Origin: Roseateles toxinivorans
GTDB lineage: Bacteria; Pseudomonadota; Gammaproteobacteria; Burkholderiales; Burkholderiaceae_C
Reading direction: 5' to 3'
NCBI GenBank assembly: GCA_945898095.1
Contig: CAMDHE010000046.1
Location: 1-33,994, forward strand
DNA length: 33,994 nt
Shown piece by piece: positions 18,151 through 28,416 of this stretch. The first letter of the stretch is position 1. Each line of letters begins with the position of its first letter. The notes beneath the pieces were generated by a model. The model saw nothing but the letters and a program-made list of their open reading frames with translations. It did no database searches and was not told where the DNA came from. The translations under genes were made by a program, and so were the position numbers.

Positions 18151-20214
18151 TCAGACCGGCAGCAGTCCGCGGCCGCGCAGCATCGGTTCGACTTGCGCAT
18201 CACGGCCGCGAAAGTCGCGGAATGCTGCCCCGGGCTCGACGCTGTTGCCGCTGGAGTAAATGCAGCGCAGCAACCTGGCGGCCACATCCGCATCGAATGG
18301 GCTGCCCGCCTCGACAAAAGCGTCATAAGCATCGCAGTCGAGCACCTCGGCCCACATATAAACGTAATAGCCCGCCGCATAGCCGCTGCTCGAGAACAGA
18401 TGCTGGAAATGCGTCATCCGGTGGTTCATGCCGATCGCTGCGGGTAAGCCGTAAGCAGCCATCGTGGCGGCTTCGAACTCGACCACGGCCGGGCCGGTTT
18501 CGCTGTCGAGTGAATGGGCTGCCATATCGACCAGCGCGCTGGCCGTATAACGCACCGTCTCATAGCCCTGGTTGAACAACTCGGCAGCCTTGAGCTTGGC
18601 CAGCATCGCATCGGGAATTGGCGCACCGGTCAGGACATGGCGGGCATGCTTCTTCAGCAATTCGGGCTCGCTCATCCAATGCTCGAAGATCTGCGAAGGC
18701 AGCTCAACGAAATCGCGCAGAACCTGGGTGCCCGAGAGGCGCTGGAACTCGACATTCGACAGCAGACCATGCAGGCCATGGCCAAACTCGTGGAACAGCG
18801 TGCGCACCTCGTCGAAACCGAGCAAGGTCGCCTGGCCCGGCGCGGCCTTGGAGAAATTGTTGTTGTTCAGAATCACCGGCAGGCTGATGCCGCCGTTGCG
18901 GGACTGCCAGCGCAGCGCATTCATCCAGGCCCCGCTGCGTTTGGGCATGCGGGCGAAGTTGTCGTGCAGGAAGATGCCGCGCAGTTGGCCCTCCGCATTG
19001 CGGACTTCGTAGACCTTGACATCCGGGTGATAGGCAGCCACCTCGGGCTGGGCAACGAAGTTCAGGCCGAACAAGCGCTGCGCGCAATCGAACAAGGCTG
19101 CAACCATCGCGTCAAGCGAGAAATAGGGTTTGACCAGGGCATCATCGAGGTCGTAGCGCGCCAGCCGTACTTTTTCGGCGTAATAGCGCCAGTCCCAGGC
19201 CTCGAGCGTGAAGCTGTGGCCCAACTGATCCATCACCGCCTGCAACTCGGCTTGCTCATTGGCGGCTGCCGCCTTGGCGGGTTCCCAGACGCGTCCGAGC
19301 AAGCCCAGCACCGCCTCGCGCGAACCGGCCATGGTGTCGGCCAGCGCATAGTCGGCAAAGCAGCCATGGCCATGCAGCCTGGCCTGCAGATGACGCAAGC
19401 TCAGGATCTCCTGGGCGATGGCCTGGTTGTCGCTGACGCCCGCGCTCTCGCCACGACTGGTCCAGGCGCGCCAGGCCTGCTCGCGCAGATCGCGGCGCTC
19501 GCTGAAGGTCAAGAAGGGCAGGATCGATGCGCGCGACAAGGTGATCAGATGGACATCCATGCCGCTGTCCGAGGTGACTCCACGGTCTTGCGCGGCCTGC
19601 CGCGCATTGGCGCGCATCTCATCGGGCAGACCCGCCAGGTCAGCCTCGCCGCGCAGCAGCAGTTGATAGCCGTTTTCATCCGCCAGCACATTCTGCGCAA
19701 AGCTGGTGTTCAGCTTGGCCAGCTTGGCCATCACCTCGGCATAGCTGGCCTGCTCGGCCGCGCCGAGCTTGGCGCCGGCACGGACAAAGTCCAAGTGCAC
19801 GCGCTCGAGCAGTCGCAGGGCCTCGGGCGTCAGGTCCAGCGCCTGGCGCTGCTGATGCAGCGAGTCGATGCGCTGGAACAGCGGACTATGCATATAAACG
19901 GCGCTGCGATGCGCGGCCAAAGGTCCGGCCAGTTCACGCTGCACCGCCTGCAACTGCGGCGATGTGGCCGAGGCGGTCAAGGTGTAGAACAAATGCTCGA
20001 GCCGGCCGGCCAAAGCGCCGCTGCAGTCGAAAGCCGCCAGCGTGTTGTCGAAAGTCGGCGCTGCAGCCTGCCCGGCAATGACATCAAGTTCGGCCAAATG
20101 CCCCGCCATTGCCACAGCGAAAGCAGGGGCAAAATGGCCGGCTTCGATCTGCGCAAATGGCGGCAGGCCATAGGGGCCATTCCAGTCTTGCAGCAGCGGG
20201 TTGTTTGAGTTCAT
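18151..20214 (-). CDS. dcp: M3-family metallopeptidase, Dcp-type peptidyl-dipeptidase
   Basis: Zinc peptidase that removes dipeptides from the C-terminus of short peptides. The 687-residue length is close to E. coli Dcp (about 680). The zinc motif LFHEFGHGLHGLL (HEFGH at residues 475-479) is followed by LSGTQVLRDFVELPSQIFEHW. In that segment the RDFVE-PSQ-EHW pattern is Dcp-like rather than PrlC/OpdA-like, which supports Dcp. The C-terminal YVYMWAEVLDCDAYDAF segment with the substrate tyrosine region is present. There is no signal peptide, so it is cytoplasmic. ATG 20214 was chosen because the N-terminus MNSNNPLLQDWNGPYGLPPF is family-like; the further upstream frame runs into a repeat element. 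The promoter should lie in the 59 bp between the start and that repeat. Confidence 0.88.
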   Translation of the reverse strand: MNSNNPLLQDWNGPYGLPPFAQIEAGHFAPAFAVAMAGHLAELDVIAGQAAAPTFDNTLAAFDCSGALAGRLEHLFYTLTASATSPQLQAVQRELAGPLAAHRSAVYMHSPLFQRIDSLHQQRQALDLTPEALRLLERVHLDFVRAGAKLGAAEQASYAEVMAKLAKLNTSFAQNVLADENGYQLLLRGEADLAGLPDEMRANARQAAQDRGVTSDSGMDVHLITLSRASILPFLTFSERRDLREQAWRAWTSRGESAGVSDNQAIAQEILSLRHLQARLHGHGCFADYALADTMAGSREAVLGLLGRVWEPAKAAAANEQAELQAVMDQLGHSFTLEAWDWRYYAEKVRLARYDLDDALVKPYFSLDAMVAALFDCAQRLFGLNFVAQPEVAAYHPDVKVYEVRNAEGQLRGIFLHDNFARMPKRSGAWMNALRWQSRNGGISLPVILNNNNFSKAAPGQATLLGFDEVRTLFHEFGHGLHGLLSNVEFQRLSGTQVLRDFVELPSQIFEHWMSEPELLKKHARHVLTGAPIPDAMLAKLKAAELFNQGYETVRYTASALVDMAAHSLDSETGPAVVEFEAATMAAYGLPAAIGMNHRMTHFQHLFSSSGYAAGYYVYMWAEVLDCDAYDAFVEAGSPFDADVAARLLRCIYSSGNSVEPGAAFRDFRGRDAQVEPMLRGRGLLPV

Positions 20215-20273
20215 GGATGTCAATGCCTTTGCGGCCGGATCGGCCCTGCGATAAAAATGGCGCCGACCGTTGA

Positions 20274-20435
20274 GGATGCTCGGCATAACCCAACGCGGAT
20301 ATGTGCAGTGCGGACCGGGATGGGATGCAAGGCGCATTTTGCGGCCAATAGCGCGTGCTATTGGCACGAAATGCAACGCCGCAGACCGCCCGGGGCCGCG
20401 CTAGCACCAGCCGTGAGGGGTCATGCAGAGCATCC
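20274..20435 (+). repeat. 162-bp palindromic repeat (MITE-like), copy 1
   Basis: The element begins GGATGCTCGGCATAAC and ends with the near inverse (GTCATGCAGAGCATCC). In its middle, at 20345-20364, is the perfect-stem palindrome CCAATAGCGCGTGCTATTGG. The whole unit can fold into a long imperfect hairpin. Two further 162-bp copies occur at 25963 and 26294. The four bases TTGA flank it on both sides (20270-20273 and 20436-20439), a possible target-site duplication. It fills most of the 284-bp gap between dcp and the gene ending at 20499. Reading frames inside it are by-products of the repeat. Confidence 0.9.
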
Positions 20436-20498
20436 TTGAAGGTGGCGCCAGTAGAGACCGATCAGCCCATGCGGGTCAATCGGCGGTCAAAACAGGTT

Positions 20499-21164
20499 TT
20501 ACTTAGCCGCTGCGGCACGTTCCTTCTTGAGGGCGATTTCGTCGGCTTCGTCGTAAGCCTTGTTGCCGCAATCGGCTTTCCAGGCATCGAGGCTGTCGAG
20601 GTAGGACTCGGCGCGGGCGTCAAGCGTCTTGTTTTTCAGGTTGTGCTCCGCGACCCGGGCGTCGAAGGCCTTGCTGTCGGCTAGGTAGACATCTTTCTTC
20701 TTGTTGTGCTCATCGATGCGCGGGTCCATCGCCGCTGCACGGGCCTGGTATTCGTCCTGGAACTTCTTGATCTCATCCTTGTCGAGCTTTTCCTTGGCCA
20801 CTCGCGCCTTGACCTCCTCGCCGAACTTGATGATGTCTTCGCGATCCTGCTTCATCTTGGCCAGATTGGTCGTCAGCAATTCGCCTCGGGCGGCCAACTC
20901 ATTTTTCAGGTTCAGCAGATCCTTGCGATCCTCGGCCTGGGCCGCTTGGGCGAGCTTGATCGCCTCGGCTTCAACACGGTCGGCGTCCTGGCGCAAGAAG
21001 CAGGCGCGCAGTTGGTCGCGCGTCATCAACGGCGCTTTGGGCTTGTCGACCACCGGACGGCTGACCTTGTTGTTCTTCGGGTCGACTTTGACCGCCGGGT
21101 TGGTGGACTGTGCGAACACTGGCAGGATGGCCGCAGCAAAGAGGGTAATCAGCAGTCGTTTCAT
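20499..21164 (-). CDS. Secreted coiled-coil protein of unknown function
   Basis: A 221-residue protein with a signal peptide (MKRLLITLFAAAILPVFA, cleavage about residue 18). A charged, lysine/glutamate/alanine-rich body follows, predicted to be largely helical and coiled-coil (about residues 60-185). Only two cysteines remain in the mature part: Cys55 in MTRDQLRACF and Cys199 in WKADCGNKAYDEADE. They lie at opposite ends of the helical region and could form one disulfide. The tail ends in a lysine/alanine-rich segment. I do not recognise a named family, though a Betaproteobacteria-conserved family of this layout is my impression. It is transcribed alone, towards the repeat element. A periplasmic location is inferred. 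Confidence 0.75.
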   Translation of the reverse strand: MKRLLITLFAAAILPVFAQSTNPAVKVDPKNNKVSRPVVDKPKAPLMTRDQLRACFLRQDADRVEAEAIKLAQAAQAEDRKDLLNLKNELAARGELLTTNLAKMKQDREDIIKFGEEVKARVAKEKLDKDEIKKFQDEYQARAAAMDPRIDEHNKKKDVYLADSKAFDARVAEHNLKNKTLDARAESYLDSLDAWKADCGNKAYDEADEIALKKERAAAAK

Positions 21165-21251
21165 GGCAATAAATTAAGTTTGTGTCATGCGTCCTCGGCA
21201 GACGCAAAAAGCCAGATCATGCCACGCCGCCGGGCGGCGCGACATCGGGGT

Positions 21252-21524
21252 TCAGCCGAGGCTTTTCAGCAGCAACTCGGTTACCAATCCGTTGATGCCA
21301 CCGGCATGCTCAGCCGCTTGCAGTCGCAGGCGCTGGGTCAACTCGGACGGCAGCTTGCAGGCAAAAGGCACCAGTCCGGCCGCTGAATCAATACGCCGCT
21401 GTTCCTTGCGGTCGGGCATCTGGCCCGAACCCTGACCGAAACGATCCGGCTTGGCCGCACCCCGCATCTGGCCATCAAGCTTCAGGCCGGCAAGGCGGTC
21501 AAGGTCGGTTCTTTTCATGTTCAT
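21252..21524 (-). CDS. Small protein, possibly ribbon-helix-helix-like, unknown function
   Basis: A 90-residue protein from ATG 21524 (alternative ATG 21518). The first half is polar and looks disordered. The second half, LVPFACKLPSELTQRLRLQA followed by GINGLVTELLLKSLG, has the strand-helix-helix look of small ribbon-helix-helix or antitoxin-like proteins. There is no toxin gene beside it. A DNA-binding role is only a suggestion from the pattern. The 116-bp gap to divergent yaeQ would contain both promoters. I see no convincing operator there, but an 11-base match to the repeat terminus lies at 21568. Confidence 0.6.
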   Translation of the reverse strand: MNMKRTDLDRLAGLKLDGQMRGAAKPDRFGQGSGQMPDRKEQRRIDSAAGLVPFACKLPSELTQRLRLQAAEHAGGINGLVTELLLKSLG

Positions 21525-21567
21525 GGCAGCTGTCGGTTGTTGTTTGAATCGGTTGATTGTCCCCCAG

Positions 21568-21578
21568 GGATGCTCTGC
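21568..21578 (+). repeat. Solitary 11-base match to the repeat terminus
   Basis: GGATGCTCTGC in the 21525-21640 intergenic gap is identical to the first 11 bases of the terminal inverted repeats of the elements at 25963 and 26294. Nothing else of the 162-bp element is visible nearby. It may be a decayed end or a chance match. Confidence 0.2.
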
Positions 21579-21640
21579 CGGCTAACGTTGCTCAAGCGGG
21601 CTGATAATCCAAGGCTTTGCGCGCTGAACCAGGAGCCGCC

Positions 21641-22201
21641 ATGGCCATCAAAGCCACCATCCACAAAGCCCAGCTGCAAATCGCCGACATGGATCGCCAT
21701 GTTTATGGCGAGCACAACCTGACCATCGCGCGCCAGCCGTCCGAGACCGATGAACGGATGATGATCCGCATCCTGGCTTTTGCCTTGAATGCACCAGCCG
21801 ACGAATTGCAGGGACGACTTGAGCTGAGCAAGGGCTTGTCCGATGTCGACGAACCCGAGTTGTGGCAACGCGACCTCAGGGGTGACATCCTGCATTGGAT
21901 CGATCTGGGCCAGCCCGATGATCGGCGCCTGCTCAAAGCCCATGGTCGCGCCGGCCGCGTCAGCGTTTACAGCTATACCTACAGCACACCGATCTGGTGG
22001 GCCTCGGTCGAAGCCAAGCTGGCGCGCGCCCAGCGCCTGAGCGTCTGGCAGATTCCGGCCGAACAATCACTAGCGCTGGCCGCTTTTGCCCAGCGCAGCA
22101 TGCAGCTACAGGTAACGGTGCAGGACGGTGGCATCTATGTCTCGACGGCCAAGGATTCGCTCGAAATCACCCCCCATGCCTTGAAACTGGCGCAAGCATG
22201 A
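21641..22201 (+). CDS. yaeQ: YaeQ family protein
   Basis: A 186-residue protein of the YaeQ family, whose structures show a PD-(D/E)XK nuclease-like fold; the biological role is not established. Recognisable segments are MAIKATIHKAQLQIADMDRH at the N-terminus, LTIARQPSETDERMMIRILA, GLSDVDEPELWQRDL and HWIDLGQPDDRRLLKAHGRA, where the acidic cluster and Lys are the nuclease-like residues. ATG 21641 has a good ribosome-binding site (AGGAG) five bases upstream. The stop overlaps the next gene's start (ATGA), so yaeQ and the peptidase are coupled. Confidence 0.93.
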   Translation: MAIKATIHKAQLQIADMDRHVYGEHNLTIARQPSETDERMMIRILAFALNAPADELQGRLELSKGLSDVDEPELWQRDLRGDILHWIDLGQPDDRRLLKAHGRAGRVSVYSYTYSTPIWWASVEAKLARAQRLSVWQIPAEQSLALAAFAQRSMQLQVTVQDGGIYVSTAKDSLEITPHALKLAQA

Positions 22202-24309
22202 CCTGCCTGCGCCGCCTTGCCACCTATTGCGCCCTCGGCGCCGCAATTTGCTTGCCCCTCATGACCATGGCTGAAGATACCGACCCCTATCAATGGCTCG
22301 AAGAAGTGCAGGGAGAACGCGCGCTGGACTGGGTACGCCAGCGCAACGCGGTTTCTCTGCAAGCTCTGCAATCGCGGCCCGAATATCCGGCGCTGCGGCA
22401 ACAACTGCTGGAAGTCCTCAACAGCAGCGATCGAATCCCGCAGATCCGTCGCTTCGGCCCCTGGTTCTACAACCTCTGGCAGGACGAGCAGCACCCGCGT
22501 GGCCTGTGGCGCCGCGCCAGCCTGGCCGAATATCAAACGGCCAAGCCGCAATGGCAAACCGTCATCGACCTCGATGCCCTGGGAGCCGCCGAGAAAGAGA
22601 ACTGGGTCTTTGCCGGCGCCAACTGCCTGGGGCCTGCCTATCGGTTCTGCCTGCTGTCGCTGTCGCGCGGCGGCGCCGATGCCCATGTAGTACGTGAGTT
22701 CGACCTGCAGACGCTGAGCTTTGTCGATGGCGGCTTCCAACTGCCCGAAGCCAAGAGCGAGGTCGAATGGATCGACGCCGACCATGTCTATGTCGGCAGC
22801 GATTTCGGCCCTGGCTCATTGACCGATTCGGGCTATCCCCGCGTCATCAAGCGCTGGCAGCGCGGCAAGCCGCTGGCTGCGGCCCGCATTGTTTTCGAAG
22901 GCGAGCGCAAGGATGTGGCGGTGTCGGTGCAGGTCGACCGCACGCCGGGCTTCGAGCGCACCAGATTCAGCCGTTCGCTCGACTTCTACAACCAGGCCAG
23001 CTTCCTGCTGCAAGGTGAACAACTGGTCAAGCTCGAGTTGCCCAGCGACATGCAGGAACAGTTCTGGGGCGCCAGGCTGCTGCTGCAACCACGCAGCGAT
23101 TGGCGGGTCGATGGCCGCAGCTATGCCGCCGGCTCGCTGCTGCTGGCCGATGCGGCCGCCTTCCTGCAGGGTCAGCGCAAGTTCCAAGTCCTGTTCAGCC
23201 CGACGGCAACGCGTTCTCTGGCCGGTTACACGCTGACCCGCGACCAGGTGATCCTCAATATCAGCGACCAGGTCGCCAGCCGCTTGGAGGAGTGGGATCT
23301 AGCCGGCGCCAGCCCGCAGCATCGCAAGATCGCGGCACCCTTCCCCGGCACCTTGAGCCTGGCCGGGCTGCATGACAGCGAACTACCGGCGGACGATCTC
23401 GCCGATCGCTACCTGGTCAACTATGCCGATTTCCTGACGCCCGACACGCTTTATCTGGCACGCGCTGGCAACGATCAGCGCAGCGCCCTGAAGAGCCGTG
23501 AGCCCAAGTTCGACGCCCAGGGCATGCGCGCCGAACAGCACTTCGCCCGAAGCCCGGACGGCACCCAAGTGCCCTACTTCGTTGTCTGGCCGGCTGGGGC
23601 CAAACTCGACGGCAAGAACCCGACCTTGCTCTATGGCTACGGCGGTTTCGAGCTCTCGATGCAGCCCTGGTATTCGGGCGGCTTCGGCCGTGCCTGGTAT
23701 GGCCGCGGCGGCGTGCTGGTGCTGGCCAATATCCGCGGCGGCGGCGAGTTCGGCCCGAACTGGCATCAGGCGGCGGTCAAGGCCGACAAGCAGCGCAGCT
23801 ACGACGACTTCATCGCAGTCGCCGAAGACCTGATCGCGCGGAAAATTACCACGCCGCGCCATCTGGGCATCATGGGCGGCAGCAACGGCGGACTGCTGGT
23901 CGGAGCGACTTTCGTGCAGCGGCCCGAGCTGTTCAACGCCGTGGTCTGTCAGGTGCCCTTGCTCGACATGCAGCGCTACCACCGCTTGCTCGCAGGCGCT
24001 TCATGGATGGCCGAATATGGCGATCCTGACCAGGCCGATGAATGGTCCTTCATCTCCAAATACAGCCCCTACCAGAACGTCAAAGCCGGGGTGAAATACC
24101 CGAAACCGCTGTTCACCACCTCGACCCGCGACGACCGCGTGCATCCCGGCCATGCGCGCAAGATGGCAGCGAAGATGCTGGCCCAGGGGCATGAGCTGCT
24201 CTATTACGAGAACATCGAAGGCGGGCATGGCGGCGCTGCCGACAATGCCCAGCGCGCCACCTTGCAGGCGCTGGAATACAGCTACCTCTGGCAGCAACTG
24301 GGGCGTTGA
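22198..24309 (+). CDS. Prolyl oligopeptidase family (S9A) serine peptidase, exported
   Basis: A 703-residue protein with a signal peptide (MTCLRRLATYCALGAAICLP, cleavage near MTMA, about residue 25), a beta-propeller region and a C-terminal alpha/beta-hydrolase domain. The catalytic serine lies in GGSNGGLLVG (Ser562), the acid in TRDDRVHPGH (Asp645/646) and the histidine in EGGHGG (His677). YGYGGFELS and NIRGGGEFG are typical S9A strands. It probably cleaves short peptides after proline in the periplasm. The true start, ATG 22198, overlaps yaeQ; the frame runs further upstream only inside yaeQ. Substrate preference, and whether it acts on proline-containing peptides, are inferred from the family. 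Confidence 0.92.
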   Translation: MTCLRRLATYCALGAAICLPLMTMAEDTDPYQWLEEVQGERALDWVRQRNAVSLQALQSRPEYPALRQQLLEVLNSSDRIPQIRRFGPWFYNLWQDEQHPRGLWRRASLAEYQTAKPQWQTVIDLDALGAAEKENWVFAGANCLGPAYRFCLLSLSRGGADAHVVREFDLQTLSFVDGGFQLPEAKSEVEWIDADHVYVGSDFGPGSLTDSGYPRVIKRWQRGKPLAAARIVFEGERKDVAVSVQVDRTPGFERTRFSRSLDFYNQASFLLQGEQLVKLELPSDMQEQFWGARLLLQPRSDWRVDGRSYAAGSLLLADAAAFLQGQRKFQVLFSPTATRSLAGYTLTRDQVILNISDQVASRLEEWDLAGASPQHRKIAAPFPGTLSLAGLHDSELPADDLADRYLVNYADFLTPDTLYLARAGNDQRSALKSREPKFDAQGMRAEQHFARSPDGTQVPYFVVWPAGAKLDGKNPTLLYGYGGFELSMQPWYSGGFGRAWYGRGGVLVLANIRGGGEFGPNWHQAAVKADKQRSYDDFIAVAEDLIARKITTPRHLGIMGGSNGGLLVGATFVQRPELFNAVVCQVPLLDMQRYHRLLAGASWMAEYGDPDQADEWSFISKYSPYQNVKAGVKYPKPLFTTSTRDDRVHPGHARKMAAKMLAQGHELLYYENIEGGHGGAADNAQRATLQALEYSYLWQQLGR

Positions 24310-24314
24310 ATCAG

Positions 24315-25172
24315 ATGACAAAGATGCTTGAAATCCACCACGACAAGGCAAGTTGCCGCTTCAGCGCCGAAGTCGATGGTCATGGCCTTGAACTCGACTA
24401 TGTCCGGCATGGCGAACAGCTGATCTTCAGCCATACCGGCACCGCGCCGGAGTTGCAAGGCCGTGGCCTGGCCGGCAAGCTGGTCGAACATGGCTTGCGC
24501 TGGGCTGCACCGTTGGGCCTGCAAGTCGTGCCGCAATGCAGCTACGTCGCCATCTGGATGCAGCGCCATCCGCGCTGGCAGCGGCTGCAGCTCTTGCCGG
24601 CGGTCCAGCAGGTGCTGAACTTCTGGTTCGACCCGATCGGCGGCACGCAGGATTTGCAAGCGCGCAGCCAATGGTTCAGCAAGAACGATGCAGTCGATGA
24701 GGAAATTCGCCAGCGCTTCGGCCATCTGATCGAGGCTGCGCTGGAAGGCGGTCTGGCCGACTGGACGGCGCAGCCTCTCGGCCGGCTGGCCAGAATCCTG
24801 CTGCTCGACCAGTTCACCCGCAATGCCTTTCGCGGTCAGGCCCAGGCCTTTGCCGGCGATGCGCTGGCGCTGGCCGATGCGCTGACCCTGCTCGACAGCG
24901 GGCAGGATCAGGCGCTCGAACCGATGCAGCGCTGGTTTTTGCTGATGCCGCTCGAACATGCCGAAGACCTGGCAATGCAACAACGTTCAGTGACTGAATT
25001 CGAACGCCTTGCCGGCATTGAGCCCAAGCTCGCCGACGCCTTGGCCTATGAAAAACGCCACCTCGAGGTGATCGCGCGGTTTGGCCGCTTCCCGCACCGC
25101 AATGCTAGTTTGCAGCGAAAGTCGAGCGCCGAGGAGTTGGCTTACTTGAACCAACCTGGCTCGGGCTTTTAA
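24315..25172 (+). CDS. Fusion of YjdJ-like GNAT acetyltransferase and DUF924 domain
   Basis: A 285-residue protein joining two domains that I know mainly as separate proteins. Residues 1-90 form a small GNAT-type acetyltransferase (COG2388 type) with HTGTAPELQGRGLAGKLVEHGL as the acetyl-CoA-binding segment and VVPQCSYVAIWMQRHPRW as its conserved end. Residues from about 98 match DUF924: VLNFWFDPIGG, WFSKNDAVDEEIRQRFG and LARILLLDQFTRNAFRGQ. Candidate starts are TTG 24306, ATG 24315 and ATG 24324; the ATGs are preferred as they give MLEIHHD-type starts. It is coupled to the S9 peptidase gene upstream. The join is continuous with no frameshift visible. Function of the fusion is unknown. Confidence 0.85.
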   Translation: MTKMLEIHHDKASCRFSAEVDGHGLELDYVRHGEQLIFSHTGTAPELQGRGLAGKLVEHGLRWAAPLGLQVVPQCSYVAIWMQRHPRWQRLQLLPAVQQVLNFWFDPIGGTQDLQARSQWFSKNDAVDEEIRQRFGHLIEAALEGGLADWTAQPLGRLARILLLDQFTRNAFRGQAQAFAGDALALADALTLLDSGQDQALEPMQRWFLLMPLEHAEDLAMQQRSVTEFERLAGIEPKLADALAYEKRHLEVIARFGRFPHRNASLQRKSSAEELAYLNQPGSGF

Positions 25173-25191
25173 ATCGGTGGCCGCGCTGCGG

Positions 25192-25635
25192 CTACTCGAT
25201 TGTGATGATCTGGTTCAACATCGCGCAGGCTTTCGCGAAGTCCGCATCAGCCAATTTCCCCTGCGAATGCGGCTTGGCACCCCGAGCCCGCCAGTCGAAC
25301 GACTTGGGCTGATGGCACAACACATAACTGATCTTGCCAACCTTTCTGCCACTGGCAGCACCGATCGCCAAAGCGAAGGGATTGGTGGCGTTGTACGCAG
25401 CCGTTGTCATTGGCAAGCCGATGATGAGGCCGGTGCGGGCATTGAACGCGATCGGCGACAACACCAGCATCGGGTGCAGATCGCGCATTTCCCCGCCCGC
25501 CTGAGGATTGCAATCGATCCAGATCACCTCTTGTCGTTCTGGCACCCATGCCCCGCCTGTCAGCGGCGGCGCGGATTTGGACTTCGCACGGACGCTGGTA
25601 CGACGCACGGTGGATGGCGCCCTGCCGGTCACCAT
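25192..25635 (-). CDS. MazF/PemK-family toxin
   Basis: A 147-residue probable endoribonuclease toxin. The family core is clear: VPERQEVIWIDCNPQAGGEM, MLVLSPIAFNARTGLIIGLP, MTTAAYNATNPF, YVLCHQPKSFDWRARGAK. By eye, Thr77 aligns with catalytic Thr52 of E. coli MazF, while the position of Arg29 is His54 (LHP instead of HRP). Arg51 lies nearby. It has about 25 extra basic, proline-rich N-terminal residues compared with E. coli MazF. ATG 25635 overlaps the antitoxin stop by seven bases, as usual for such pairs. It converges with the GNAT-DUF924 gene 19 bp away. Toxicity is inferred. Confidence 0.88.
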   Translation of the reverse strand: MVTGRAPSTVRRTSVRAKSKSAPPLTGGAWVPERQEVIWIDCNPQAGGEMRDLHPMLVLSPIAFNARTGLIIGLPMTTAAYNATNPFALAIGAASGRKVGKISYVLCHQPKSFDWRARGAKPHSQGKLADADFAKACAMLNQIITIE

Positions 25636-25880
25636 AGCTCTCGGCCCACTGGCGTCACTGGCATCGCCTCGCCAGCGTGAACATCCGGATCAAATTGCGC
25701 CAGCCGCTCGGCAAGCGTAGGGGCCTTGTCGCCGAATGGCGTGATGATGACGCGGCTATCTTCCACGGTAATCCGCACCCGCTGGTCGACCTTCAGATGC
25801 GCTGCACGTGCTACCGATGCGGGCAGACGCACGCCCAGGTTATTGCCCCATTGCTTGATGTCGAGAATAGCTTCGGTCAT
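25629..25880 (-). CDS. AbrB/MazE-family antitoxin
   Basis: An 83-residue antitoxin. The N-terminal swapped-hairpin DNA-binding domain (about residues 5-48) reads ILDIKQWGNNLGVRLPASVA, then HLKVDQRVRITVEDSRVIIT, the classical SpoVT/AbrB pattern. The acidic, flexible C-terminus (LAQFDPDVHAGEAMPVTPVG) is the part expected to wrap and neutralise the toxin. ATG 25880 is preceded by AGGA. The gene leads the two-gene toxin-antitoxin operon. It probably represses its own promoter together with the toxin; a perfect palindrome is present 18 bp upstream. Confidence 0.88.
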   Translation of the reverse strand: MTEAILDIKQWGNNLGVRLPASVARAAHLKVDQRVRITVEDSRVIITPFGDKAPTLAERLAQFDPDVHAGEAMPVTPVGRELW

Positions 25881-25898
25881 GTGGAATCCTTCAATATC

Positions 25899-25910
25899 TA
25901 AACATGTTTA
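25899..25910 (-). promoter_or_regulatory. Palindrome upstream of mazEF, probable operator
   Basis: TAAACATGTTTA is a perfect 12-base palindrome in the AT-rich 82 bp between the antitoxin start and repeat copy 2. AbrB/MazE-type antitoxins usually bind palindromes at their own promoters, so this is the best candidate for autoregulation. Minus-strand promoter hexamers around it (TTGATG upstream, TATTGA downstream, 16-base spacing) are possible but weak. Confidence 0.5.
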
Positions 25911-25962
25911 TACATCAAATTTCAAGCCTGCGTCCGCGGCTGGCTGCAGCGAGTTCGCCTCG

Positions 25963-26124
25963 GGATGCTCTGCATAACTCAACGCGAGTGTGTGCGGTGC
26001 GGATCGGGATGGGATGCAAGGCGCGTTTTGCAGCCAATAGCGCGTGCTATTGGCAAGAAATGCAACGCCGCAGACCGCCCGAGGCCGGGCTAGCACAAGC
26101 CGTGAGGGGTTATGCAGAGCATCC
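25963..26124 (+). repeat. 162-bp palindromic repeat (MITE-like), copy 2
   Basis: Same orientation as copy 1. The 16-base termini are perfect inverted repeats of each other (GGATGCTCTGCATAAC at the left, its exact complement at the right). The central 20-base palindrome is at 26034-26053, at the same offset (71 bases) as in copy 1. Flanks CTCG and CTAG are only similar, so a target duplication is uncertain. It lies 82 bp upstream of the antitoxin start and may carry its distal promoter boundary. Confidence 0.93.
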
Positions 26125-26293
26125 CTAGCGAACATGCAAATCTGACGATCCAAGGACCGCGCTCTTGCGCGACCTAGAATCGCCCATCCCGGCAGACCCG
26201 ACCGAATCGCAAGCCCGACAAGGCCTGAGCCCATTACTGGGCGTCATGCACTTTTCTTGCAGTCGGCATTGACCTCTTTGATCAAGTAGCTAA
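26125..26293. other. 169-bp spacer between inverted repeat copies
   Basis: This stretch lies between two oppositely oriented repeat copies. I see no complete gene, no RNA gene and no clear promoter. A short frame near 26253-26291 (VGIDLFDQVAK) looks coding-like but has no start or context, so it could be debris of a lost gene or chance. Confidence 0.4.
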
Positions 26294-26455
26294 GGATGCT
26301 CTGCATAACCCCTCTCGGCTTTTGCTAGCGCGGCCTCGGGCGGTCTGCGGCGTTGCATTTCTTGCCAATAGCACGCGCTATTGGCCGCAAAATGCGCCTT
26401 GCATCCCATCCCGATCCGCACCGCACCCGCTCGAGTTGAGTTATGCAGAGCATCC
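26294..26455 (-). repeat. 162-bp palindromic repeat (MITE-like), copy 3, inverted
   Basis: Reverse orientation relative to copies 1 and 2. The termini are the same perfect 16-base inverted repeats, and the central palindrome is at 26365-26384, again 71 bases from the equivalent end. Its right end is 26 bp before the mobA start codon, so any mobA promoter must lie inside or beyond this element. Flanks (CTAA / CATC) show no target-site duplication. Confidence 0.93.
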
Positions 26456-26481
26456 CATCAACCCCAAAAAGGCGGCAACCC

Positions 26482-28416
26482 TTGCAATTCCATTCCAACG
26501 GCTTCCACCCCGGCGACCCGCATATTTACGCTGCTGCTGACCTTGCGGCCCCACACAGCGTGGAGTTGCCGTCGCAGGTGGACGTGCTCATCGTCGGATG
26601 CGGCCCGGCCGGGCTGACGCTGGCAGCGCAACTCGCAGCGTTTCCAGATATTTCAGTGGCGATCGTGGAGCAGAAGGATGGTCCGATGCAATTGGGCCAG
26701 GCCGACGGCATTGCCTGCCGCACGATGGAGATGTTCGAGGCTTTCAACTTCAGCGAGCGGGTGCTCAAGGAAGCCTGCTGGGTCAATGAAGTCACGTTTT
26801 GGAAGCCCGACGAAACAAAACCCGAGCAAATCATGCGCCATGGTCGGGTGCAGGACACCGAGGACGGTCTGTCGGAATTCCCCCATGTGATCCTGAACCA
26901 GGCAAGGGTGCATGACTTCTACCTGGATGTGATGCGTAATTCTCCCAGCCGTCTGGAGCCGCATTACTCGCGCAAGCTGCTCGACCTGACAGTGGACCGT
27001 GACGCGCAGGACTACCCGGTCACGGTGCGCTTGGAGTGCAGCGATGGCGCGCAGGCAGGTGCAGTGGAGACGGTGCGGGCGCGTTATGTGGTCGGCTGCG
27101 ACGGCGCACGCAGCGCAGTCCGCAAGTCCATCGGGCGCGAATTGGTGGGTGACCAGGCCCAGCAGGCCTGGGGCGTGATCGACATGCTGACGATCACCGA
27201 TTTTCCGGACATTCGCCACAAGGTAGCCATCCAGTCGAACAACGGCGGCAACCTGCTGATCATCCCGCGCGAAGGCGGCTACCTGGTGCGTCTTTATGTG
27301 GAGATGGAAAAGCTCGGCGAGGGTGAACGCGTGGCCGAGCGCCAGATCACTCTGGACCAGATCATCACCGCCGCGCAGCGCATTTTTCACCCTTACAAGC
27401 TGGACGTGAAAGAGGTGCCCTGGTGGTCGGTGTACGAGATCGGCCAGCGCATCTGCGACAAGTACGACGATGTCCCGGCTGAGGATGTAGACATACGTCT
27501 GCCGCGCGTTTTCATCGCTGGAGATGCCTGCCATACCCACAGCCCCAAGGCGGGTCAGGGCATGAACTTCTCGATGCAGGACAGCTTCAATCTGGGCTGG
27601 AAAATGGCCGCCGTATTGCGCGGGCAATGTGCGCCAAAGCTGCTGCACAGCTACTCGGCTGAACGCCAGGTCATGGGGCAGATGCTGATCGACTTCGACC
27701 GCGACTGGGCCCGGATGATCAGCGACAAGCCGGCTGAAAAAAAGGGCACATCGTCTGAAGCCCAAGGTGTCGATCCCAAAGCCTTCCAGAACTATTTCGA
27801 ACAGCATTTGCGCTTCACTGCCGGCTTGGGGATCCAATACTGTCCCTCGGAAATATGCGGTGAGGCCGCGCATCAGGCCTTGGCCAAGGGTTTCGAAGTC
27901 GGCACCCGATTCCACTCAGCGCCGGTATTGCGCGTTGCCGACGCCAGGCCGGTGCAACTGGGACATGCCGGCAAGGCCGACGGACGCTGGCGCTTGTACG
28001 CCTTTGCGGGCCGGAAGGACCCTTTCGACGCTCATACAGGTGTGCTGGCCCTTTGCCGGTTCCTACAGGAATCGCCGGACTCGCCGGTGCGCAATTACAC
28101 AAGGCCCGGCCAGGATCCGGATGCATTGTTCGATTTGCGCGCGATCTTCCAGCAAGGCCATCGCGAACTGGCCATCGAATCGATGCCGGCGCTGCTGCTG
28201 CCGCAAAAGGGTCGCTACGGACTCCACGACTACGAAAAGGTCTTCTGCCCGGATACGAAGTCAGGCCCGGACATCTTCGACCTGCGCGGCGTGAACCGCG
28301 ACCAGGGTGCGCTGGTGATCGTGCGACCCGACCAGTACATCGCCCATCTGCTGCCGCTCGACGCGCATCGGGATCTCGCGATGTTCTTTGCGGGATTCAT
28401 GTTGCCGAGCTGCTGA
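26482..28416 (+). CDS. mobA: 3-hydroxybenzoate 4-monooxygenase MobA (FAD-dependent)
   Basis: Flavoprotein hydroxylase expected to convert 3-hydroxybenzoate to protocatechuate with NADPH and oxygen. The 644-residue protein has the FAD dinucleotide motif VDVLIVGCGPAGLTLAAQLA (GxGxxG at 39-44), the DG motif YVVGCDGARSAVRKSIGR and the FAD/ribityl GD motif RVFIAGDACHTHSPKAGQGM. It has the thioredoxin-like C-terminal domain of the phenol-hydroxylase group. Segments such as LGQADGIACRTMEMFEAF and TEDGLSEFPHVILNQARVHD closely match C. testosteroni MobA as I remember it. I chose TTG 26482 because the N-terminus (LQFHSNGFHPGDP) aligns with MobA; the in-frame ATG 26443 lies inside the repeat element. 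No protocatechuate-cleavage genes are nearby. A related phenol-type substrate is possible. Confidence 0.87.
   Translation: MQFHSNGFHPGDPHIYAAADLAAPHSVELPSQVDVLIVGCGPAGLTLAAQLAAFPDISVAIVEQKDGPMQLGQADGIACRTMEMFEAFNFSERVLKEACWVNEVTFWKPDETKPEQIMRHGRVQDTEDGLSEFPHVILNQARVHDFYLDVMRNSPSRLEPHYSRKLLDLTVDRDAQDYPVTVRLECSDGAQAGAVETVRARYVVGCDGARSAVRKSIGRELVGDQAQQAWGVIDMLTITDFPDIRHKVAIQSNNGGNLLIIPREGGYLVRLYVEMEKLGEGERVAERQITLDQIITAAQRIFHPYKLDVKEVPWWSVYEIGQRICDKYDDVPAEDVDIRLPRVFIAGDACHTHSPKAGQGMNFSMQDSFNLGWKMAAVLRGQCAPKLLHSYSAERQVMGQMLIDFDRDWARMISDKPAEKKGTSSEAQGVDPKAFQNYFEQHLRFTAGLGIQYCPSEICGEAAHQALAKGFEVGTRFHSAPVLRVADARPVQLGHAGKADGRWRLYAFAGRKDPFDAHTGVLALCRFLQESPDSPVRNYTRPGQDPDALFDLRAIFQQGHRELAIESMPALLLPQKGRYGLHDYEKVFCPDTKSGPDIFDLRGVNRDQGALVIVRPDQYIAHLLPLDAHRDLAMFFAGFMLPSC

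Follow-up and report, generated by a model that had tools for sequence, protein, structure and literature searches.

A 162-bp inverted-repeat element present three times in the window

The window analyzed here is the whole of a 33,994-nucleotide stretch (positions 1 to 33,994, forward strand) of Roseateles toxinivorans assembly GCA_945898095.1, namely, contig 46 (CAMDHE010000046.1) of a 4.71-Mb draft in 209 contigs (G000). It contains three copies of a 162-bp element, at 20274-20435 (copy 1, plus strand), 25963-26124 (copy 2, plus strand) and 26294-26455 (copy 3, minus strand). An initial annotation, made from the sequence alone, had described these three intervals as equally long elements resembling miniature inverted-repeat transposable elements (MITEs), and we found length and positions to be as described. 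The 16-bp terminal inverted repeat (TIR) that it had reported is present at all six ends: GGATGCTCTGCATAAC is exact in copy 2 (25963-25978, mate 26109-26124) and in copy 3 (26440-26455, minus strand, mate 26294-26309), while copy 1 carries one mismatch per end (20274-20289, mate 20420-20435). Scanning the window for this repeat with up to 3 mismatches returned 6 sites, compared to a mean of 0.40 and a maximum of 3 after shuffling. The apical palindrome also lies at a common offset in all three copies (20345-20364 and 26034-26053 on the plus strand, 26365-26384 on the minus strand), these being the 3 sites found in the window against a chance mean of 0.01. However, it does not read identically on the plus strand, as had been stated: in copy 3 it is CCAATAGCACGCGCTATTGG, the reverse complement of the sequence in copies 1 and 2. 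Indeed, copy 3 is oriented opposite to the other two and is 95% complementary to copy 2, the two being mutually inverted and separated by a gap of 169 bp.

Within each copy we delimited a hairpin core. It occupies 20316-20392 in copy 1 (plus strand, element positions 43-119; placed by the aligned copies and the core alignment), 26005-26081 in copy 2 (plus strand; core alignment and covariance model) and 26337-26413 in copy 3 (minus strand; covariance model). Each unit had been predicted to fold as a whole into a long imperfect hairpin, and this was borne out for copy 2, the sole copy folded (-101.9 kcal/mol, z = -10 versus dinucleotide shuffles).

Copy 1 is flanked by a perfect 4-bp duplication, TTGA, at 20270-20273 and 20436-20439. 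Copies 2 and 3 have no clear duplication, their plus strand flanks being CTCG/CTAG and CTAA/CATC, respectively; both observations agree with the earlier description. None of the copies encodes a transposase of its own, again as had been noted: the open reading frames (ORFs) over them are short or extend in from neighboring genes, and the scanned ORFs overlapping copies 1 and 3 gave peptidase and monooxygenase matches and no transposase match.

Dispersed copies, target duplications, and empty sites

The element is abundant in the source genome. The central palindrome, allowing up to 2 mismatches, occurs at 96 sites genome-wide, each site counting on both strands. The G000 regions fetched for comparison, which leave out some palindrome sites (e.g., on contig 203), together with the window and one earlier locus yielded 106 nonoverlapping family matches, and a search of the draft scored 40 of its 139 candidates. 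Near-full-length copies (161 to 163 bp) numbered 73 in the fetched regions, and 68 of them measured exactly 162 bp, with a mean divergence of 3.9% from their own consensus. Many G000 contigs start or stop inside an element copy (L084, L096, L104, L106, L145, and others). Because of these breaks, the copy number and any cognate insertion sequence (IS) are perhaps undercounted, and the coincidence of copies with many contig ends is relevant to assembly of the draft. An isolated 40-bp element end abutting unrelated sequence was also seen (L077, 2059-2098), marking a rearrangement or insertion breakpoint.

Shorter forms with internal deletions were found as well: four of 116 to 117 bp, one of 125 bp and one of 57 bp. 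We considered whether these might be mobile subfamilies and rejected this, since one site occupied by a 116- to 117-bp form in G000 holds a 162-bp copy in two relatives, G016 and G017, and the flank of the 57-bp form matches that of a 162-bp copy in G016. By this comparison, the form at the shared site and the 57-bp form look like in situ deletions.

Exact 4-bp duplications flank 38 of the 69 copies for which both flanks were available, whereas shuffled pairings averaged 7.8 and never exceeded 15. Among the same copies, exact duplications of 3 bp and 5 bp were found twice and once, respectively. The flank composition of the copies corresponds to YTAR.

Empty sites were found in G017, a close relative that lacks the element at all three window sites. 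One of its contigs aligns piecewise, at 90 to 94% identity, to window positions 19800-26950, with the three copies absent. The site of copy 1 is empty to the exact base and retains a single TTGA; the sites of copies 2 and 3 carry 2 and approximately 6 additional bases, respectively. From G016 and G017, 20 chosen regions each were fetched, giving 23 copies per genome, 20 of them with both flanks. A site was shared with a G000 copy by 5 of the 20 copies in G016 and by 4 of the 20 in G017. The script counted 5 in both; we give 4 for G017 because one case (L369) depends on short stretches that match what is left of a deletion form. Some insertions are thus common to G000 and its relatives, and the rest do not lie beside G000 copies among the regions compared.

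IS5-family insertion sequences with similar ends occur in the genus

G000 gave three DDE_Tnp_1 matches, and none of these loci has a TIR pair at up to 4 mismatches. It also harbors one weak DUF772 fragment. An isolated end-like site with 4 mismatches to the TIR (L155, 881-896) adjoins CTAG near an unrelated transposase gene and is possibly the end of another element.

A survey of the genus identified DUF772-type transposases in 12 of 18 genomes and 22 IS loci, three of which were examined closely (L264, L265, and L275). All three are IS5-family elements with DUF772 and DDE domains, matching transpos_IS5_4 (NF033581) with 322 to 328 bits against a cutoff of 140. Each is flanked by a CTAG duplication, which matches the YTAR target of the MITE. 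The best candidate, L265 in G017, has a right end in which 17 of 19 bases equal the first bases of the MITE. The search proposed in the initial annotation, for an IS with the same 16-base termini, turned up similar ends on IS5-family ISs of the genus, and exact ends were not found in the G000 draft.

A hairpin core conserved across the Burkholderiales

The core is an asymmetric hairpin of about 77 bp with a G+C content of 60%. A BLAST search with copy 2 against 59 genomes, its own included, matched 19. In ten elements from the same genus, the core arms diverged from the G000 consensus by 5.8%, the TIRs by 17.2%, the apical part by 17.7%, the outer stem by 31.1% and the inner stem by 38.7%. Outside the genus, as in two elements of a genome within it (G010), a matching core comes with different ends. 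Another genome assigned to the genus, G004, is that of Paucibacter sp. KBW04, its contig 8 agreeing with NZ_QAJN01000016.1 at 4001 of 4001 bases.

A pattern scan of a species-genome collection returned at least 104 stretches. Among the 80 listed, 72 have betaproteobacterial titles, mostly Comamonadaceae, while the titles of 5 point to other groups and those of 3 are unspecific. The scan pattern requires near-exact arms, so that this sample is unable to show arm conservation. Core matches L160, L183, L189, L204, and L223 come from metagenome bins labeled Desulfovibrionaceae, Pseudomonadales, Erythrobacter, and Desulfobulbus; matches in such nonbetaproteobacterial bins are either binning errors or the result of transfer.

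An alignment of 65 cores, 18 rows of which were chosen without the arm pattern, contains 22 consensus pairs, and 11 of these show compensatory changes. The outermost pair of the core is also compensated, being C-G, T-A, or G-C in most rows. The arms retain conserved unpaired bases and are not simple complements of each other. At E ≤ 1e-5, a covariance model built from this alignment detected the core in 101 of 300 Burkholderiales genomes, representing 56 of 135 genera. No more than 15 candidates per genome were scored in this census, under strict filters and with rough E-values.

Rfam gave no match at the gathering score in the window and none at E ≤ 1 in 25800-26600, and it may lack repeats of this sort. 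The suggestion made at the outset that the units are RNA-structure elements like ERIC or Correia repeats gained nothing from Rfam, and a secondary role of this kind may remain. A plasmid or phage vehicle was also considered. Plasmid searches gave partial matches in 2 records, none for the element of G212 (described below) and 1 for a type from Paracidovorax. A phage search gave no match to the element, and one core was seen, by the core pattern, on an IMG/VR viral contig (L261).

One core is enclosed by two kinds of ends

Two pattern scans together provided 107 cores. We kept the 87 with 120 or more clean bases on either side and set aside the 20 whose flanks were short or ambiguous. An 18-bp inverted repeat with at least 15 matches encloses 84 of the 87 cores, compared to 14 of 259 shuffled controls, and some of the enclosing repeats are not termini but inner portions of the stem. 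By a strict rule requiring a canonical end plus an exact duplication, 42 of the 87 cores passed. They fell into two classes, 18 with GG-ends and a 4-bp duplication and 24 with GA-ends and a 3-bp TNA duplication. Lengths of 160 to 163 bp were found in 17 of the 18 members of the 4-bp class and in 9 of the 24 members of the TNA class, and 12 of the latter measured 266 to 268 bp. The remaining lengths were 261 bp in the 4-bp class and 200, 216, and 280 bp in the TNA class. These classes and lengths indicate that one core, in elements of much alike sizes, is combined with two kinds of IS5-type ends. Elements of about 161 bp have one hairpin, and the elements of about 267 to 270 bp that were looked at have two.

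A genome with both the MITE and a like-ended IS

In genome G212, a single contig of 5.47 Mb with 35 core-model matches, a related MITE family of about 270 bp and an autonomous IS occur together. Of 22 MITEs checked, 19 were 270 bp long and the others were 268, 269, and 165 bp. An A follows all 22 and a T precedes 21, which is consistent with a TA target, and the ends of all 22 fit a 20-base pattern within one mismatch. The autonomous IS measures 857 bp and is present in 12 copies identical at 855 to 857 of 857 positions. It carries two reading frames, each matching transpos_IS5_3 (DUF4096, DDE_Tnp_1), and is thus an IS5-family element. The MITE end agrees with one IS end at 20 of 20 bases and with the other at 19 of 21. 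Besides the ends, BLAST of the MITE against one IS copy gave no significant match, and a search allowing up to one mismatch did not find the left-arm core motif in the IS. That the core is a remnant of the IS was thereby ruled out for G212, where IS and MITE have only their ends in common.

One G212 element (L335, 1578-1730) has a perfectly palindromic second hairpin. Among 12 other G212 copies viewed, 11 keep mismatches in this hairpin and one is without it. The L335 palindrome is likely the product of a template switch between the two arms. Paired inverted hairpins within one element were found in G212 and G041, and there were no long tandem arrays in the four genomes viewed.

Distribution of changes within the element

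The 68 copies of 162 bp in G000 carry 77 private changes, which are evenly spread: the 77 core sites account for 35 of them and the 85 sites outside for 42 (P = 0.73). In five orthologous pairs, the 310 core-arm and apical sites had 3 changes and the 500 other sites had 13; these pairs lean toward fewer core changes, in a sample too small to settle the matter. Paired changes among the genome's own copies occupied 20 cells, whereas shuffling gave a mean of 6.5 and a maximum of 12, and 9 of these 20 cells represent one change common to several copies. Long-term conservation of the core without clear constraint after insertion is what would be expected if the core mattered for the production of new copies. 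On this modest evidence, the core is probably conserved for a part that it would play in propagating the element itself.

Genes next to copies 2 and 3

The inverted pair formed by copies 2 and 3 lies between a PemK/MazF-like toxin gene of the toxin-antitoxin type (25192-25635, minus strand) and a gene for a phenol-hydroxylase-type monooxygenase (26443-28416, plus strand). The likely TTG start of this flavin adenine dinucleotide (FAD) monooxygenase ORF (26482) is 26 bp past the end of copy 3. An ATG at 26443, within the terminal repeat of copy 3, opens an in-frame extension of the ORF, and in the element-free G017, the matching upstream frame contains a TAA. Because the ATG is in frame and the element-free frame holds this TAA, copy 3 may supply an alternative start to the monooxygenase gene.

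Discussion

MITEs are commonly told apart by their ends, and those of the second of their two types have only the ends in common with an IS. Correia/NEMIS and ERIC repeats differ from the present element in sequence and hosts. In Polaromonas sp. strain JS666, a member of the Comamonadaceae, a MITE was reportedly described by Mattes et al. in 2008. The element studied here resembles IS5-dependent MITEs in its size, its TIRs, its 4-bp YTAR or 3-bp TNA duplications, its dispersed copies and the existence of like-ended IS5-family ISs, and in G212, it has only its ends in common with the IS. Unlike in those MITEs, the interior is kept here under different ends and, within the genus, is kept more than the ends themselves. 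A review of prokaryotic MITEs divides them into two types by the extent of sequence shared with the IS and classes Correia/NEMIS and ERIC among them as abundant small repeats (PMC10969869); abundance and small size are shared by our element, which has no Rfam match. The words Burkholderia and Acidovorax do not occur in that review, which cites the Polaromonas report. In the open-access literature, the matches listed included no account of a single core under several kinds of ends, and a search for core strings gave, among the matches listed, unrelated titles alone.

The closest description that we found is that of the Beta-proteobacterial repeat element (BRE) of Hot et al. (2011), a sequence of about 90 bp (75 to 91 in Bordetella; PMC3110155). 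According to that paper, BRE is rich in G+C (averaging 69% in Bordetella), suspected to be mobile, presented as tandem repeats and of unknown function, and several can occur per locus; it is dispersed in Bordetella, Polaromonas, Acidovorax, Delftia, and Azoarcus. The terms "hairpin" and "inverted" are absent from its main text (PMC3110155). The core is similar by description in size, taxonomic spread, and suspected mobility, but its G+C content is 60% rather than 69% and BRE is presented as tandem. Comparing the two descriptions, we consider that the core is probably BRE.

Taken together, the dispersed copies, the 4-bp duplication, the empty sites and the similar-ended IS5-family ISs in the genus agree with the MITE reading of the initial annotation. 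The three units in the window are very probably MITE copies mobilized in trans by an IS5-family transposase, and they would represent one branch of a Burkholderiales-wide set of elements with a common chassis, the asymmetric hairpin core of about 77 bp, to which different IS5-type terminal repeats are joined in different carriers. Such a transposase would recognize GGATGCTCTGCATAAC-type ends, insert at YTAR and duplicate 4 bp. We can only infer the cognate IS, because no transposase with the exact element ends was found in the G000 draft. As a kind, the element is an ordinary IS5-type MITE; what is unusual is a core conserved under different ends.

In this main reading, the folded core might be recognized during propagation, for example, by a host factor or by the transpososome. 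Since the two halves of the element are nearly complementary, template switching from arm to arm can alter both together, with L335 as one likely instance, and both ends would in this way change jointly and adapt to other transposases. A bolder proposal, which we regard as possible and still somewhat doubtful, is that the core is a hyperparasitic chassis kept for its own sake throughout the Burkholderiales. It would persist by exchanging its ends for those that any available IS5-subgroup transposase accepts, and a widespread factor required for its spread would recognize the folded hairpin.

Several observations weigh against the main reading or blur it. In addition to the missing exact-ended transposase, L265, the best candidate IS, agrees poorly at its left end, with 11 of 16 bases by hand count. 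The additional bases at the G017 sites of copies 2 and 3 could be excision scars, so that these would not be virgin sites, or later changes. The strict rule failed for 45 of the 87 cores, and these 87 were sampled by a near-exact arm pattern with several cores per genome. The ten same-genus elements behind the divergence values were taken from BLAST loci and anchored on the core, which introduces a mild bias. Finally, private changes are not fewer in the core than elsewhere.

Four other explanations were weighed. The one that we rate highest, while still thinking it unlikely, takes covariation and arm conservation as side effects of template switching and of a recent horizontal spread, leaving the core functionless. 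The perfect palindrome of L335 fits this view, as switching can make paired changes without selection, and so does the neutral appearance of core mutations after insertion. Yet switching would erase the asymmetry of the arms, and this asymmetry persists, even among the 18 of 65 rows chosen without the pattern; moreover, within one genus the core arms are more alike than the TIRs. We find it harder still to believe that the core is maintained for the benefit of the host, as a structured RNA or regulatory hairpin (an mRNA end, an RNase III site or a small RNA) traveling in MITEs. A role of this type has likewise been proposed for Correia/NEMIS, ERIC, and bprJ/BRE, and the strong fold of copy 2, the compensation seen at 11 of 22 stem pairs, the leaning of the orthologous pairs toward fewer core changes and the position of copy 3 close upstream of a likely gene start would suit it. 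A BRE-bearing locus of Bordetella is moreover described as yielding transcripts of 80 and about 200 nucleotides (PMC3110155). Nevertheless, the core lacks an Rfam match, its mutations among copies are as frequent as elsewhere, and the few sites held in common with G000 (4 of 20 in G017 and 5 of 20 in G016) are not suggestive of conserved host sites.

The hairpin could alternatively be a single-stranded DNA site for recombination or transposition, attC-like or REP/HUH-like, with its own recombinase and nested in IS5 MITEs. Its unpaired conserved bases, asymmetric arms and variable, covarying apex resemble attC in general layout only, and two hairpins are possible per element; however, an inverted repeat surrounds 84 of the 87 cores and independent movement was not seen, which makes this origin very improbable. 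The thought that an ordinary intergenic palindrome was duplicated locally, invited by copies 2 and 3 being inverted 169 bp apart, is refuted for practical purposes by the 73 near-full-length copies dispersed over many contigs with their own, differing flanks and target duplications.

If the core is indeed BRE, the MITE reading would also tell what this puzzling repeat is physically and how it moves. More generally, a constant middle with varying ends, mostly at two lengths and over many genera, turns a usually neglected matter into a testable question, namely, whether the interior of a bacterial MITE does anything.

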